Shown one piece after another: positions 27,952-43,186 of a stretch of DNA of 53,469 bases; the stretch's first letter is position 1; every line of letters begins with the position of its first letter. The stretch is from NCBI GenBank assembly GCA_018057705.1, contig JAGPDF010000029.1:1-53469 (forward strand), in the 5' to 3' direction. The stretch comes from Thermoanaerobaculia bacterium. GTDB taxonomy: Bacteria; Acidobacteriota; Thermoanaerobaculia; Multivoradales; JAGPDF01. Under the pieces are notes generated by a model. It was not told the DNA's origin. It saw nothing but the letters and a program-made list of their open reading frames with translations, and did not search any database. The position numbers and the translations under genes were made by a program.

Positions 27952-28842
27952 CTAGCTGCGGCGCCCGTTGCCTGCGGGCGACGGCAGCTCAGCCTTGGCG
28001 AGTACGAAGGCCGGCGGCCTCGCCGGTGCCGTTCGAAACTCTGATGGGGAGACTCCGAACTCGCTGCGAAAAGTCGTCGAGAAGTGGCTCAGCGAGCCGA
28101 ATCCGACCGCGAAGCAGACCTGCGTCACCTGGCCGCCCTCGCGCAGCCGCCGGGCGGCCTCGCGCAGGCGCACGCCGACGAGGAATCGGTGCGGCGTCTC
28201 GCCTTCGAGCTCGGCGAAGACACGCGCAAACGGATAGAGGCTCATCCCGACCTCGCGCGCCAGATGCGAGAGCGACAGCGGCTCGGCGAAGGCCGTCCGC
28301 ATCATCTCCTTGGCGCGGTCGATCCGCGCCGCGTACCAGGAGAGTTGATGCGCGCGGTAGAGGGGGCGGCGGCCGGGAGCCGCGCCGAGGGTCCACCAGA
28401 GTGCGCCCGCGAGCGCTTCGAGCCGCGCCGCCTCACCTGGCGGACTCACCGCGAGACTGTGCCGCAGGTACGCGCGGCGGTTGGTCAACTCGAGGACCGG
28501 GGCGATCCCGGCAGGCGTGGCGGTGATGGCGGCGGCACCCGCCGAGCGCAGGCTCTCGATCGTCGAATCGCGGTAGAGCACGCTCAGGCACTCGTCTTCG
28601 GGATACTCCTCGTCGTGGGCGCAAGAGAACTCGAGTCCAGGACGCGTCACGAAAAGGCGGTCGGGGGTGACCGTTTGCCAGGCTTGGCCGATCCGCACGC
28701 GAAACGAGCCCGAACAGACGAAATTGACCGCATGGCCTTCGGCCCGCTCGCGCTCCGGATCGCGATGGGGCGTCAGGGGATCGTGCCCGAACCGTTCGAG
28801 CGCGATCGCCGGGGTGCGGCCGATGGAATGGACGAGGTTCAC
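27952..28842 (-). CDS. AraC-family transcriptional regulator
   Basis: The 296-residue protein has an N-terminal cupin-like effector region (about 1-165) and a C-terminal AraC HTH pair (about 185-285): L-S-L-S-H-L-A-R-E-V-G-M-S for the first helix-turn-helix and V-C-F-A-V-G-F-G-S-L-S-H-F-S-T-T-F-R-S-E-F-G-V-S-P for the conserved second. Two cysteines in the sensing part (F-V-C-S-G-S and D-E-C-L) are noted. It is convergent with the cupin gene and has no obvious target gene next to it apart from that neighbourhood. Confidence 0.9.
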   Translation of the reverse strand: MNLVHSIGRTPAIALERFGHDPLTPHRDPERERAEGHAVNFVCSGSFRVRIGQAWQTVTPDRLFVTRPGLEFSCAHDEEYPEDECLSVLYRDSTIESLRSAGAAAITATPAGIAPVLELTNRRAYLRHSLAVSPPGEAARLEALAGALWWTLGAAPGRRPLYRAHQLSWYAARIDRAKEMMRTAFAEPLSLSHLAREVGMSLYPFARVFAELEGETPHRFLVGVRLREAARRLREGGQVTQVCFAVGFGSLSHFSTTFRSEFGVSPSEFRTAPARPPAFVLAKAELPSPAGNGRRS

Positions 28843-37495: not shown

Positions 37496-39316
37496 CTAGG
37501 GCTGCCCGAAGAGCGCGGCGACCGCGGCAGCGTGGGCGGCGAGCAGGGCGGCGCGTTTGATCTTGAGGGTCGGGGTGAGCAGCTCCGGGTAGTCCTGCGG
37601 CGTGCCGGGGAGAACGAGGAGCTTCTTCGGCTTCTCGAAGTCGGAGAAGGCGGCGAGCCCGGCGCGGGCCCGCGGCAGGAGCGCCGTGGCCGCGTCCTCG
37701 CCGGCCGCGGCGATCCGGGCGAGCTCGGCGCGATCCACGAAGACCGCCGCGGCCACGAACGGCCGGCCCTCTCCGAACAGCACGGCGCCATGGAACGGCG
37801 CCGTCGAGGCGAGCGCCAGCTCGATCGGCTCCGGCGAGAGCTTCTTGCCTGTGGAGAGCATGATCAGGCTCTTGCAGCGTCCCTCGATGTAGAGGAAACC
37901 CGCTTCGTCGACCCGTCCGAGGTCGCCGGTGCGGAAGAAGCCATCCGCGGTCCAGACCTCCGCTCCGTCCTCTGGCTCGAGGAAACCGGAGAGCAACAGC
38001 GGACCACGCACCTCAAGCTCGCCGTCGGCGCCGAAGTGCACCTCGTGATCGGCTGTGATCCGGCCGGCGCAACCCTGCCGCCGCGGACCGGCGAGCAGGT
38101 TCGAGGAGATCATCCCCGCCGTCTCGCTCATCCCGTAGAGCTCGACCAGGGGGATGCCGAGACTCTCGAAGAACCGGAAGAGCGCCGGCGGGGCCGGCGC
38201 GCCGCCGGCAAACAGGCCGCGTACCCGGCCACCCAGCCGGGCGCGCAGGGCGCGACCGACGAGCCGGTCGGCGAGACGCGTGCCGAGAGCGTCCCCGATC
38301 CGCCGCGAGCCGTCGAGACGCCGGCGCGCGGCGGCTGCGAGCGCCCGGCGCACCGCCCACCGCAAGGGGGGCGGGAGCGCGGCGATCTTCGCCTCGACCC
38401 CGTCGCGCATGCGCTCGTAGACCAGGGGCACGGAGAAGAAGTAGGTCGGGGCGAGAGCGAGGCCGGGCTCGAGCTCTTCCCGCCGGGCCACCATGATCAA
38501 CTCATGCCCCTGCGCCAGGGCGAGGGTGAACTGGGCGTGCCCGGCGATATGCCCGAAGGGCAGGAAGTGGAGACCGACATCGTCCCCGGTGGTCGCCACG
38601 GAGGCCTGACCGGCGTCGAGCGCGTGCACCATCGCGCGCTGCGCAAGACGCACGCCCTTCGACCGCCCGGTGGTGCCGCTGGTGAAGAGGAGCAGAAACG
38701 GGTCCTCCTCCCCGACCGCCGCGGCGAGCGCCGCCATCTCCTCCGGCGCGAGGCCGGGCGCCTCGTCGCCGACGGCAGAGGCGAGCGCAACGACCGGGAG
38801 ACCGGCCGGCACCGAGTCCGGCGCGAGGCGGGCGCCGGTAATGACCGCCGCAAGCCCGGCGGCGATGAGCTCCGGCGCGGCCGGCTGAAGCTTCTCCCAC
38901 TGCGCTGCGGTCGAGACGAAGATCACCCGCGGCGCGACCCGGCGCGCGATCCCGGCCACGGTCTCCGCCCCCAGGCTCGAGAAGACCGCCGCCGGCTCGG
39001 CGCGCAGCAACTGCGTGCCCAGCGCCACCATCTGCCACTCCGGTGAGTTCTCGGCCAGCAGGAGGACGCGCAAGCCCGGCCCGACACCGACCGAGCGCAG
39101 AAGCCGGGCCGCCCGTCCCACTCCGGCCGCGAACGCGCCGCGCGACAGCGTGCACGGCGCGCCGAGCGCACCGCCGTCGCCGGCCGGCGGCTCGAGAAAA
39201 CGCAGAAAACGCCGCTCCGGCTGGCGGCTCGCTGTCGCCACGAGAAGCGCCGGCAGCGTGCGCGCCGCGAAACGGCGAGGCTCGAGTCGAGGGAAATCCT
39301 GCCGCTCGGTCGTCAT
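37496..39316 (-). CDS. AMP-forming long-chain acyl-CoA synthetase-like protein
   Basis: The 606-residue protein belongs to the AMP-binding (ANL) superfamily: A3 loop L-L-F-T-S-G-T-T-G-R-S-K-G-V, later Y-G-M-S-E-T, the hinge region G-F-F-R-T-G-D-L-G and a C-terminal lysine in T-L-K-I-K-R. Length and order fit FadD15-like long-chain fatty-acid:CoA ligases, which activate fatty acids to acyl-CoA through an acyl-adenylate. The ATG overlaps the stop of amrA (ATGA), so it is the last gene of the amrB-amrA series. No other lipid gene is adjacent, and the link with the AmmeMemoRadiSam genes is not explained. Confidence 0.87.
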   Translation of the reverse strand: MTTERQDFPRLEPRRFAARTLPALLVATASRQPERRFLRFLEPPAGDGGALGAPCTLSRGAFAAGVGRAARLLRSVGVGPGLRVLLLAENSPEWQMVALGTQLLRAEPAAVFSSLGAETVAGIARRVAPRVIFVSTAAQWEKLQPAAPELIAAGLAAVITGARLAPDSVPAGLPVVALASAVGDEAPGLAPEEMAALAAAVGEEDPFLLLFTSGTTGRSKGVRLAQRAMVHALDAGQASVATTGDDVGLHFLPFGHIAGHAQFTLALAQGHELIMVARREELEPGLALAPTYFFSVPLVYERMRDGVEAKIAALPPPLRWAVRRALAAAARRRLDGSRRIGDALGTRLADRLVGRALRARLGGRVRGLFAGGAPAPPALFRFFESLGIPLVELYGMSETAGMISSNLLAGPRRQGCAGRITADHEVHFGADGELEVRGPLLLSGFLEPEDGAEVWTADGFFRTGDLGRVDEAGFLYIEGRCKSLIMLSTGKKLSPEPIELALASTAPFHGAVLFGEGRPFVAAAVFVDRAELARIAAAGEDAATALLPRARAGLAAFSDFEKPKKLLVLPGTPQDYPELLTPTLKIKRAALLAAHAAAVAALFGQP

Positions 39317-39945
39317 CTCGAGCCGCGACGACCCCGGCCCGGAAGCGGCGCTGCCGCCTCGCCGCCTCCCAGAGCAGGCCCCACCGCGATCGACTCGGCG
39401 CGGTAGCGGAAGAGGCGCCGGGCCGGCGACCAGCTCCCTGGCCGGAGTCCGGCCTTGCGCTCGAGCTGGGCGACGAACGATTCGGGATCGGGGAGCTGCT
39501 GCCACACCGCCGGCAGGAAGGTCGCGCCATGCCCGTCCTCCTCGAGCACCAGTCCGTCGACTCCGGGCACGAGCGCCGCCAGCAGTTCGGCGCGTCCGCC
39601 GACCGCGAGCGGCTCGGGCGGATGGAGGAGCGTCAACTCGACCGAAAGCTCTGCGAGCTCGTGGGCTTCGACGGGATCGAAGCGCGGGTCGCGCAGGGCG
39701 GCCGCGCGGCCGTTCTCGGCGACGTCGAGCCCGAGCCCCCGCCGCGCCCGGATCGAACCGATGCAGCCGCGTAGCTCGCCTGCGGCGCGCAGCGTGACGA
39801 AGCTCGCGCCGGGCTCGGCGAGTGGCCCCACCATCCACTCCCGCGGCGGGGTGTAGCGACAGCCGCTCGCCGCCGCCACCACCGACTGCCGGGCGATCGT
39901 CGCGAGGGCGGTGCGCGACTCGGGCGAAAGGTCCCACTCAGGCAA
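39313..39945 (-). CDS. amrA: AmmeMemoRadiSam system protein A (AMMECR1-like)
   Basis: The protein (about 210 residues from a TTG overlapping the amrB stop) is the AMMECR1 domain: F-V-T-L-R-x-x-G-E-L-R-G-C-I-G-S with its invariant R-G-C-I-G, the D-P-R-F-D-P-V segment, T-L-L-H-P-P-E-P-L and F-L-P-A-V-W-Q-Q-L-P-D near the end. Its biochemical role is still unsettled; family members occur with Memo and a radical SAM enzyme. A frame open upstream inside amrB is shadow sequence. Sits between amrB and the acyl-CoA synthetase with overlaps on both sides. Confidence 0.9.
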   Translation of the reverse strand: MPEWDLSPESRTALATIARQSVVAAASGCRYTPPREWMVGPLAEPGASFVTLRAAGELRGCIGSIRARRGLGLDVAENGRAAALRDPRFDPVEAHELAELSVELTLLHPPEPLAVGGRAELLAALVPGVDGLVLEEDGHGATFLPAVWQQLPDPESFVAQLERKAGLRPGSWSPARRLFRYRAESIAVGPALGGGEAAAPLPGRGRRGSR

Positions 39946-40732
39946 GGGCGAACGCTCCGTAGCCGACCACCCGGTCTTTTCCGGCCAGGCCGCCGGCGGT
40001 GTCGCCCGAGCTGCGCAGGTCGAGCTCGGAGACGGTGAGTCCGCGGCGTCGCGCGGCGAGCAGCAGACCGCGCAGCGGATTCCTTCCGCAGGCGTCACCG
40101 GCCGCAATGCCGTCCACGTCGAGCGCGACGATGGCGTCGGCCGTCGCCCGGTCGCGCGCGGCGGCGGTCGCAGCGTCGAGGAAGTGCGACAGATCCGTCG
40201 AGACGACGATCAGCGTCTCCTCGCCGCCCCAGAGCCGATCGAGGACCGCAGCCACCTCTTCCGGGGTGGCGTCGCCGACGACGAGCGGCACGAGCTCGAA
40301 GCGCTCGAGCGCGACCTGGAGAAACGGCAGCTCGACCTCGAGCGCATGCTCGCGTTCGTGCGGCAGGTCGGAAACGACGACCTGCGGCAGAGAGGCGAGA
40401 TGGACCGCGGCGTCGGCCGCGACCGGCACGTCGCCCAGCGGCGTCTCGAACGCTTCGGCCACCGGCAGCGCCAGGCCGGCGAACGGCACGAAATGCGACG
40501 GTCCGAGCAGCACGACGCGGTCGATCTCGCCGCGCCCCGACGCGAGCTGATGAAAGGCGCTGCCCGCCACCGGGCCGGAGTAGACGTAGCCGGCGTGCGG
40601 CGCGATGAGCGCCTTCGGGCGCCACCCGAGCGGCGGAGCGGCTGCCGCAAGATGGCCACGGACCTCGGCTTCGAGGCGGCGTGGATCGGCCGGATAGAAA
40701 CTGCCGGCCACGGCCGCAGGACGGACCTTCAT
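39938..40732 (-). CDS. amrB: AmmeMemoRadiSam system protein B (MEMO1-like)
   Basis: The 264-residue protein has the full Memo fold signature: R-P-A-A-V-A-G-S-F-Y-P start, A-P-H-A-G-Y-V-Y-S-G, G-P-S-H-F, S-T-D-L-S-H-F and D-A-C-G. The two histidines and the cysteine known as metal ligands in MEMO1 are present. Memo-type proteins resemble extradiol dioxygenases and bind iron or copper. It starts an operon with amrA and the acyl-CoA synthetase. A 13-bp element identical to one before amrS lies five bases upstream of the ATG. Confidence 0.93.
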   Translation of the reverse strand: MKVRPAAVAGSFYPADPRRLEAEVRGHLAAAAPPLGWRPKALIAPHAGYVYSGPVAGSAFHQLASGRGEIDRVVLLGPSHFVPFAGLALPVAEAFETPLGDVPVAADAAVHLASLPQVVVSDLPHEREHALEVELPFLQVALERFELVPLVVGDATPEEVAAVLDRLWGGEETLIVVSTDLSHFLDAATAAARDRATADAIVALDVDGIAAGDACGRNPLRGLLLAARRRGLTVSELDLRSSGDTAGGLAGKDRVVGYGAFALA

Positions 40733-40737
40733 GTCTG

Positions 40738-40750
40738 GAGGATACTCCTC
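40738..40750 (-). promoter_or_regulatory. Shared 13-bp element GAGGAGTATCCTC before amrB
   Basis: Read toward the gene, GAGGAGTATCCTC ends five bases before the amrB ATG. The identical 13-mer, at the same spacing, precedes amrS (41545-41557). It is an inverted repeat (GAGGA/TCCTC) and contains a -10-like TATCCT at positions -12 to -7 from the ATG. Confidence 0.55.
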
Positions 40751-40795
40751 CCGAAGCCGGCGAGAGAGGCTGAGCCTCGGGCACCGTTGCGACGA

Positions 40796-41440
40796 TCAGG
40801 GCTCCCCTGCCGTCGCCTCCCTGGCAGCGCCGAGAGTCACCGTTCGTGGAGCCGGGAGGAGAGCTCCCGGGACGGGCTCCCCGGCGAGACGATAGAGGGC
40901 TCGACTCGCGATCCGTTCCGCGGCGGCGCGGGGAGTCCCGGGCCCGCCACCCGGCTGGAGAGTCACGGTCAGCTCGAGATCGCGCCAGCCGACTTTGAGC
41001 ATCCGCAGCTCACCGCCCGCCCACCAGGCGATGTCGCCCACGCCGGAGACTGCGGAGAGGTCGCCGGTGGACAGTCGCCGCAGCATCGGCAGCGCGGCCT
41101 CGAGCTTGCGTCGCACCGTCGCTGGGCTCGCGAACCGGCGGACTTCGAGCGCCGCGTCGAGGATCGCGCCGGGTCCGTGACCGTAGGCGCAGCGCGCGAA
41201 CTCCGCTCCCGAGCTCGCGTCGAGCGGCCCGCTCAACTGGCCGATTTCGCGATCGGGCAGCTCGTCCGCAGCCTCCGAAGGCGGAAAGAGGGCGCAGGCG
41301 TCGAACGTCTCCGGGCCCCGCGGACCGGTGAAGGGGGCCCCGTCCGACCCGGCGCCGCAGGCGAGGATCAGAGCGGGGAGAACGCCGAGCAGGGGAAGAA
41401 ACGCGAACCGAGGGGCCGAGCGATGGGGGCCGTAGCGCAC
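40796..41440 (-). CDS. Hypothetical lipoprotein between amrB and amrS
   Basis: The protein (about 214 residues) has a signal sequence ending L-I-L-A-C-G, a good lipobox. The mature part carries two cysteines (D-A-C-A-L-F-P and A-R-C-A-Y-G) spaced as in DUF3558-like lipoproteins, and W-W-A-G-G-E-L in the middle. I cannot assign a function. GTG at 41440 is preferred to a TTG three codons earlier because a TAGATT box ends seven bases before it. It lies between the divergent amrS and amrB; amrB has its own element, so co-transcription is uncertain. Confidence 0.65.
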   Translation of the reverse strand: MRYGPHRSAPRFAFLPLLGVLPALILACGAGSDGAPFTGPRGPETFDACALFPPSEAADELPDREIGQLSGPLDASSGAEFARCAYGHGPGAILDAALEVRRFASPATVRRKLEAALPMLRRLSTGDLSAVSGVGDIAWWAGGELRMLKVGWRDLELTVTLQPGGGPGTPRAAAERIASRALYRLAGEPVPGALLPAPRTVTLGAAREATAGEP

Positions 41441-41447
41441 GCCGCAC

Positions 41448-41453
41448 AATCTA
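41448..41453 (-). promoter_or_regulatory. -10-like TAGATT before the lipoprotein gene
   Basis: On the minus strand TAGATT lies at -13 to -8 from the GTG start. Same near-leaderless layout as at the sigma, cupin, amrB and amrS genes. Confidence 0.35.
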
Positions 41454-41544
41454 TCGGATGCCGCCCCGCTTGCGCAGGCTCGCTCGCGAGCCGCCCGGCA
41501 GCGCGATCGGCCGCGCAGTGCCGGTACGGGAAAGATGCCGGGGA

Positions 41545-41557
41545 GAGGAGTATCCTC
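41545..41557 (+). promoter_or_regulatory. Shared 13-bp element GAGGAGTATCCTC before amrS
   Basis: Identical in sequence and in distance to the ATG (five bases) to the element before amrB. Either a common operator or a shared -10/leader element; it could coordinate the split AmmeMemoRadiSam genes. Confidence 0.55.
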
Positions 41558-41562
41558 GAGGC

Positions 41563-42687
41563 ATGGCCGACGCTCCCCTCGCGGCTTCGTTTCCCAACCC
41601 CTTCAGCCATCCCACGCGATACTGGCACCGGCTGGACGACGGACGCGCGCAGTGCGACGTCTGTCCGCGCTTCTGCAAGTTGCGCGACGGCCAGCGCGGG
41701 CTCTGCTTCGTGCGCGCCGCCGCGAACGGCGAGATCGTGCTCGCGAGCTGGGGGCGTTCGTCGGGATTCTGCGTCGACCCGATCGAGAAGAAGCCGCTCG
41801 CCCACTATCTGCCCGGCACGCCGATCCTCTCGTTCGGCACCGCGGGCTGCAATCTGGCCTGCGATTTCTGCCAGAACTGGGACATCTCGAAGTCACGCGA
41901 GACCGACACCCTCGCCGACGCCGCGACACCGGAGACGATCGCGCGCGCCGCGAAGGAGCTCGGCTGCCGCGCGATGGCGTTCACCTACAACGATCCGACG
42001 GTCTTTCTCGAGTACGCCATCGATGTCGCCGACGCCTGTCACGCCGTGGGGATCGCGGCCGTGGCGGTGACCGCCGGCTACATCTGCCCCGAACCGCGCC
42101 GCGAGCTCTACGCCCACCTCGACGCGGCGAACGTCGACTTGAAGGCCTTCACCGAGGAGTTCTACAGGAAGATCTGCCACGGGCATCTCGAGCCGGTGAA
42201 GGAGACGCTCGTCTACCTCGCGCACGAGACCTCCGTCTGGTTCGAGATCACCACCCTCCTCATTCCGGGCGAGAACGACTCCGACGGCGAGCTCGACGCC
42301 ATGTCGCGCTGGATCGTGGAGGCACTCGGCCCCGACGTGCCGCTCCACTTCACCGCCTTCCATCCCGACTACCGGATGCTCGACCACCGGCCCACGCCGC
42401 CCGCGACACTCACCCGGGCGCGGCAGATCGCGCTGGCGAACGGACTGCACTACGTCTACACCGGCAACGTCCGCGACGCGACCGGCGGCTCGACCTGGTG
42501 CCCGGGCTGCGGCGCGCGCGTCATCGGCCGCGACGGCTACGAGATCACTGCCTGGAACCTCGCGAGTCCTCTCGACTCGGGCGCCTGCGCCGCCTGCGGC
42601 ACGAAGATCCCGGGCAGGTTCGAAGCGCGCCCCGGAACCTGGGGCGCGCGCCGGCAACCGGTGCGCCTCTCGACCTTCGCGACGTAG
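41563..42687 (+). CDS. amrS: AmmeMemoRadiSam system radical SAM enzyme
   Basis: The 374-residue protein carries the radical SAM cluster motif G-C-N-L-A-C-D-F-C-Q-N-W (C-x3-C-x2-C), an N-terminal C-D-V-C-P-R-F-C-K-L cysteine group and a C-terminal zinc-ribbon-like pair (C-P-G-C and C-A-A-C). Other conserved stretches are F-T-Y-N-D-P-T-V-F-L-E-Y, P-G-E-N-D-S and H-F-T-A-F-H-P-D-Y-R-M. Together with amrA and amrB it completes the AmmeMemoRadiSam trio, whose substrate is not established. It is divergent from the lipoprotein and amrB genes. Confidence 0.93.
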   Translation: MADAPLAASFPNPFSHPTRYWHRLDDGRAQCDVCPRFCKLRDGQRGLCFVRAAANGEIVLASWGRSSGFCVDPIEKKPLAHYLPGTPILSFGTAGCNLACDFCQNWDISKSRETDTLADAATPETIARAAKELGCRAMAFTYNDPTVFLEYAIDVADACHAVGIAAVAVTAGYICPEPRRELYAHLDAANVDLKAFTEEFYRKICHGHLEPVKETLVYLAHETSVWFEITTLLIPGENDSDGELDAMSRWIVEALGPDVPLHFTAFHPDYRMLDHRPTPPATLTRARQIALANGLHYVYTGNVRDATGGSTWCPGCGARVIGRDGYEITAWNLASPLDSGACAACGTKIPGRFEARPGTWGARRQPVRLSTFAT

Positions 42688-42733
42688 AAGTCTCCCGGCC
42701 ACGGGGTCCGCAGAGCGATACTCTCGCCCTACC

Positions 42734-43186
42734 ATGCCGCGAATCCTGGTCGATGCCGATGCCTGTCCGGTGAAGGAGGAGGTTTATCGCGTCGCGCGGC
42801 GGCTGGGCGTGCCGGTCGTCGTCGTGGCGAACAGCCGGATGCAGGTACCTCTCGCCGCGGCGATCGAGTTGAAGGTCGTGGCGAGCGGCCAGCTCGACGA
42901 TGTCGACGACTGGATCGCCGAACGCGCCGGCCCGGACGACATCGTCGTCTCCGCCGACATCCGGCTCGCCGCCCGCTGTCTCGCGGCCGGCGCGCAGGTG
43001 CTCGGGCCCGACGGCCGGGCGTTCACCGAAGAGGGCATCGGCTCGGCGCTCGCGACCCGCGAGTTGATGGCCGGGCTGCGCGAGCTGGGGACGATCTCCG
43101 GCGGTCCAAAGCCGTTCGCGCCGCAGGATCGGTCGCGCTTCCTGCACGCCCTCGACGAGGCCGTCCGAGAAGCTCGCCGGCGTTAG
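42734..43186 (+). CDS. YaiI/YqxD family protein (UPF0178)
   Basis: The 150-residue protein has the family's start I-L-V-D-A-D-A-C-P-V-K and later D-I-V-V-S-A-D-I-R-L-A and G-P-K-P-F-A-P-Q-D-R-S-R-F, and matches the usual length of about 150. The acidic residues suggest a PIN-like nuclease fold, but no activity is established. It follows amrS by 46 bp; a TACTCT box ends nine bases before the ATG, so it may have its own promoter. Confidence 0.9.
   Translation: MPRILVDADACPVKEEVYRVARRLGVPVVVVANSRMQVPLAAAIELKVVASGQLDDVDDWIAERAGPDDIVVSADIRLAARCLAAGAQVLGPDGRAFTEEGIGSALATRELMAGLRELGTISGGPKPFAPQDRSRFLHALDEAVREARRR

Follow-up and report, generated by a model that had tools for sequence, protein, structure and literature searches.

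Leaderless genes, as described in the excerpt of Zheng et al. 2011 used here (PMC3160421), carry a TANNNT hexamer approximately 12 bp upstream that represents their -10 box, and the same excerpt reports such genes in three of three Acidobacteria genomes at a mean of 13.3%. For Deinococcus-Thermus, the excerpt of PMC12340547 describes a -10 motif near ORFs that was experimentally shown to drive leaderless transcription and to require a particular spacing. Memo-Ammecr1 systems are treated in PMC7159879 (in the part of that article used here), while the literature searched on AmmeMemoRadiSam, AMMECR1, Memo and radical SAM proteins turned up nothing on the promoters of amr genes.

All three proteins of the AmmeMemoRadiSam gene set (TIGR04335, TIGR04336, TIGR04337) were recognised, as in the known set, within the window (the whole stretch of DNA that was analysed, 53,469 nucleotides in length), with amrBA and amrS running in opposite directions. 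The features of the locus are as follows, the two TATCCT hexamers being assigned as putative -10 boxes from the genome-wide spacing peak and from relatives, and the TAGATT hexamer being read from the sequence.

39313-39945, minus strand: amrA (AMMECR1-like, AmmeMemoRadiSam protein A; TIGR04335, 169.4 bits), TTG start
39938-40732, minus strand: amrB (Memo-like, AmmeMemoRadiSam protein B; TIGR04336 (AmmeMemoSam_B), 239.6 bits; PF01875)
40738-40750, minus strand: 13-mer GAGGAGTATCCTC before amrB, exact match
40739-40744, minus strand: putative -10 hexamer TATCCT of amrB, 6-nt spacer to the ATG
40799-41440, minus strand: lipoprotein-like gene between amrB and amrS, with a 217- or 214-aa reading
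41448-41453, minus strand: putative leaderless-type hexamer TAGATT of that gene, 7-nt spacer to the GTG at 41440
41545-41557, plus strand: 13-mer GAGGAGTATCCTC before amrS, exact match
41551-41556, plus strand: putative -10 hexamer TATCCT of amrS, 6-nt spacer to the ATG
41563-42687, plus strand: amrS (AmmeMemoRadiSam radical SAM enzyme; TIGR04337 (rS), 629.8 bits)
42719-42724, plus strand: TACTCT, 9 nt before the ATG of the next gene
42734-43186, plus strand: YaiI/YqxD-family gene (PF02639)

The names amrB and amrS given in the original prediction were upheld by the TIGR04336 and TIGR04337 matches. Among the 80 matches listed for AmrS, the best (76%) was to an Acidobacteria metagenome-assembled genome and another (75%) to a member of Thermoanaerobaculia. 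The TTG start of amrA sits within the final codons of amrB, overlapping the amrB stop, which suggests that amrBA may be translationally coupled. A difference from the AmmeMemoRadiSam set is that amrBA and amrS diverge here from either side of one 214-aa lipoprotein-like gene; in G003 and G004, amrB and amrS were read as directly divergent. The intervening gene, for which the GTG at 41440 is the analyst's choice of start, had no Pfam or NCBIfam match, and its start resembles a lipoprotein signal when judged by eye. The signals before this gene and the YaiI-family gene (TAGATT-N7-GTG and TACTCT-N9-ATG, respectively) are of the same type as those of the amr genes with different letters, and neither lies within a copy of the 13-mer.

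Coordinates confirmed the observation of the original prediction that an identical 13-bp inverted repeat stands five bases before the ATG of both amrB and amrS on opposite strands, and that the TATCCT within it occupies -12 to -7 relative to each ATG. The repeat consists of two 5-bp arms flanking GTA and is followed by CAGAC-ATG at amrB and by GAGGC-ATG at amrS. The hexamer has the TANNNT form of leaderless genes, with its first T approximately 12 bp before the start. A search of 40600-41700 gave no sigma-70-type -35/-10 pair, a point against the promoter reading; a -35 element is often absent from leaderless -10 boxes. In the whole draft genome (177 contigs, 5,082,361 bases or 5.08 Mb, 96% complete), exactly two copies of the 13-mer were identified, both before amr genes and at the same offset, with zero copies of the same sequence read backwards as a control. 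This restriction is what might be expected if the palindrome were an operator in this genus, with a regulator bound over both -10 boxes to keep amrBA and amrS coordinated, an explanation that we nevertheless regard as very unlikely for reasons given below. A genome-wide regulon was also considered and was rejected, as sites with two or fewer mismatches to the 13-mer (90, the two exact copies included) were not above the 101 found for the backwards control.

The spacing of TANNNT to candidate start codons was scanned over 60 stretches of this genome and the window, 1.25 Mb altogether, with a filter for in-frame stops being left out because it favours TAA and TAG at spacers 6 and 9. Before ATG (4,980 candidate starts), TANNNT was found 33, 31, 18 and 21 times at spacers of 6, 7, 8 and 9, respectively, compared to four at spacer 5 and a mean of 6.9 (maximum 12) at spacers 12-30. 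A weaker peak was seen before GTG (7,737 candidates; 20, 14, 2 and 13 at spacers 6-9 against a mean of 6.8 and a maximum of 17). The control codons CTG and ATC, which are not expected as starts, showed no peak, with counts of 16, 11, 3 and 11 against a mean of 10.9 and a maximum of 22 for CTG (11,736), and 12, 7, 4 and 16 against a mean of 10.7 and a maximum of 21 for ATC (10,510). The backwards hexamer TNNNAT rose slightly before ATG, with 28 and 27 at spacers 6 and 7 compared to a mean of 14.3 and a maximum of 22, partly because TANNAT matches both patterns.

Among 728 called genes, 143 possess TANNNT at a spacer of 6-10 from some candidate start, compared to 44 and 45 at the control spacings of 16-20 and 21-25, respectively. 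TANNNT is enriched genome-wide over controls at the spacing seen before the amr genes, and the excess of approximately 100 genes (approximately 13%) is close to the Acidobacteria mean given in the excerpt of PMC3160421. The pattern GTATCCT-N4-9-ATG was found at 39 sites across eight of eight family genomes (ten of these sites being in this genome), compared to two for the backwards pattern. Contexts were inspected for 29 of the 39 sites together with that of L003, and 24 of these 30 led into an open frame of at least 80 aa, with proteins that presumably include, by eye, a tRNA synthetase, a cysteine synthase and a TsaD-like protein; GAGGA stood directly before GTATCCT in none of the 30. Besides amrB and amrS, GTATCCT exactly six bases before an ATG was found at only one place in this genome, opening just 24 aa.

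TANNNT at spacer 6-10 was identified before amrB at five of seven family loci (G000, G003, G004, G005, G006; not G001 or G002) and before amrS at four of six (G000, G004, G005, G006; not G003). The latter total includes the partial amrS of G001 (L039), at which TANNNT was absent at spacers 0-30. A locus was scored if any candidate start had such a spacer, several starts being possible at amrS of G006, amrB of G004 and others, and this also occurs by chance (44-45 of 728 at control spacings). The form of the hexamer varies at these loci (TATCCT, TATCGT, TACCCT, TACCAT and TATTCT). Outside the family, in the wider order, the signal is mostly absent, being present at 4 of 17 amrB and 2 of 23 amrS loci, while at several of the others TANNNT lies 11-26 bases ahead of the start, a placement that may be fortuitous. 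These counts omit two of 30 amrS loci (L203 and L205, which have no N-terminus) and six of 30 amrB loci (L229-L234, distant copies or no N-terminus), as well as the distant AmrS-like loci L037 and L038, and G033 contributes two amrB loci. G007, the sole other genome of the same genus among those compared (84% complete), gave no amrB or amrS match.

A second, distant pair of AmrS-like and AmrB-like genes lies side by side in some relatives, with 39-46% identity to the proteins of the window (L038 and L232 on G005:C69, L229 on G050:C447 and L230 on G001:C81). The TGA flagged inside L038 falls where the match ends and can be read as a normal stop codon.

The 13-mer itself was absent from all seven other family genomes, and nine elements of relatives that were compared (of 13 amr loci with a spacer of 6-10) share 4-11 of its 13 letters and keep 1-4 of its five arm pairs. 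The palindrome is not conserved in the family, which argues against an operator, as does the shortness of a 5-bp arm; none of the proteins profile-scanned at the locus was a regulator by family match. Across the order, the exact 13-mer was found in 7 of 59 genomes, with six sites outside this genome, and the contigs that carry these six gave no AmrB or AmrS match; five of the six lie inside open frames of at least 160 aa, and at the site in G008 an ATG four bases beyond TATCCT leads into a frame of only 21 aa. All five arm pairs are formed in one of the 143 hexamer-aligned 13-mers of leaderless-type genes, that one being the amrS copy itself, a point in favour of an operator. Even so, we consider it very unlikely that AmmeMemoRadiSam proteins A and B are coupled to the radical SAM enzyme through an operator that is specific to the genus and overlaps both leaderless -10 boxes.

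The original prediction had offered a common regulator or a shared leaderless promoter, either of which would keep the split AmmeMemoRadiSam genes in balance; the gene between them likewise has a leaderless-type hexamer, of different letters. The leaderless promoter is favoured by the TANNNT spacing peak and by the conservation of the hexamer and its near-spacing at most loci of the family, whereas the common regulator is not sustained, given the absence of the 13-mer from the other family genomes, the incomplete palindrome at the relatives' amr genes compared and the occurrence of GTATCCT before unrelated genes. As observations that would count against its proposal, it had named absence of the element before amr genes in close relatives, which is the case for the 13-mer in the family, and its being common before unrelated genes, which holds true of the -10 hexamer but not of the 13-mer.

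The arm GAGGAG could also be taken as the Shine-Dalgarno site of a leadered mRNA, with TATCCTC as its spacer. It does resemble the anti-Shine-Dalgarno complement, and this genome shows an enrichment of Shine-Dalgarno-like pentamers ahead of ATG, but their peak lies 6-8 bases before the ATG (41, 46 and 43 of 2,402 starts, counting starts with an in-frame stop within 1000 and searching 600 bases back). The AGGAG of the amr elements is at 12, where the genome count of 14 is similar to that of the surroundings. In addition, family relatives alter GAGGAG while retaining TANNNT at nearly the same spacing, and a Shine-Dalgarno role is considered highly unlikely. The meaningful part of the sequence before amrB and amrS is TATCCT-N6-ATG.

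With TATCCT read as a leaderless-type hexamer, the identity of the two copies over all 13 bases was compared to other genes. Within the 143 leaderless-type genes, one of 10,153 pairs of hexamer-aligned 13-mers was identical and four differed at one base, giving a chance identity of approximately 1e-4 to 3e-4 (1 to 3 in 10,153) for a pair named in advance; a value this low favours an operator, although many pairs and offsets could have been noticed. Of the 264,628 gene pairs sampled, 74 had some 13-mer in common at equal offset before candidate starts, and in three of the 74 the shared 13-mer covers TANNNT at leaderless spacing. As the gene caller chose a longer amrA frame (39313-40107) and omitted amrB, the 728 genes do not include amrB, nor do the 74 pairs include the amr pair. 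The three pairs with a shared 13-mer over TANNNT are L065/L090, L062/L086 and L071/L093, which have 13-14 bp in common over their leaderless-type -10 hexamers and the genes of which appear unrelated by their N-termini. Of the 26 places examined with one or two mismatches to the 13-mer, only L026 is followed by an ATG at a distance of exactly five bases, with a 228-aa open frame; here GATCCT replaces TATCCT, hence no TANNNT. A further three (L014, L020, L028) have an ATG or GTG six bases after the variant, without TANNNT, and the variant within the window (28599-28611, minus strand) lies within an open frame and has no start codon so placed. Because many pairs were open to notice, the 13/13 identity between amrB and amrS is only mildly surprising and not compelling, and is a small residue that the promoter reading leaves over.

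This identity could also go back to a small duplication or a conversion event involving the two promoters, in keeping with amrS elements of three family relatives that have only 8 of the 13 letters. Against such an event, the identity ends at 13 bp, with bases -36 to -19 matching at 5 of 18 positions, and in four family relatives the element at amrB already has 8-11 of the 13 letters, making this origin extremely unlikely.

From the sequence evidence taken together, the elements before amrB and amrS are very probably ordinary leaderless promoters, the surroundings of which are identical by coincidence, rather than a dedicated switch. TATCCT would represent the -10 box of the main promoter class, presumably of sigma-70 type, six bases before the ATG. 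RNA polymerase would open the DNA at this hexamer, and transcription would begin at, or within 1-2 bases of, the A of the ATG. The resulting amrBA and amrS mRNAs are predicted to be leaderless and translated without a Shine-Dalgarno site, with amrBA probably forming one transcript. The same type of promoter may serve roughly one gene in seven of this genome. GAGGAG and the final C would represent flanking sequence, and coincidence most likely accounts for their palindromy and for their being identical at the two genes.

The known leaderless promoter signal is by this reading extended to a family with Acidobacteria (Thermoanaerobaculia) as its nearest named relatives. Short look-alike elements before start codons are to be expected in such genomes. 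The signal may be of use in correcting the annotation of start codons, but no regulatory circuit can be deduced from it on its own. The signal at amrB and amrS is like the TA-like signal in the excerpt of PMC3160421 in the form of its hexamer, in the position of its first T approximately 12 bp before the start codon and in its occurrence in Acidobacteria, and is unlike it in that two neighbouring genes here have their hexamers embedded in the same 13-bp palindrome. It is similarly like the Deinococcus-Thermus motif, as given in the excerpt of PMC12340547, in being a TANNNT hexamer a few bases before an ORF, and differs from it in belonging to a different phylum and in having a predicted role here where that of the other was demonstrated by experiment.
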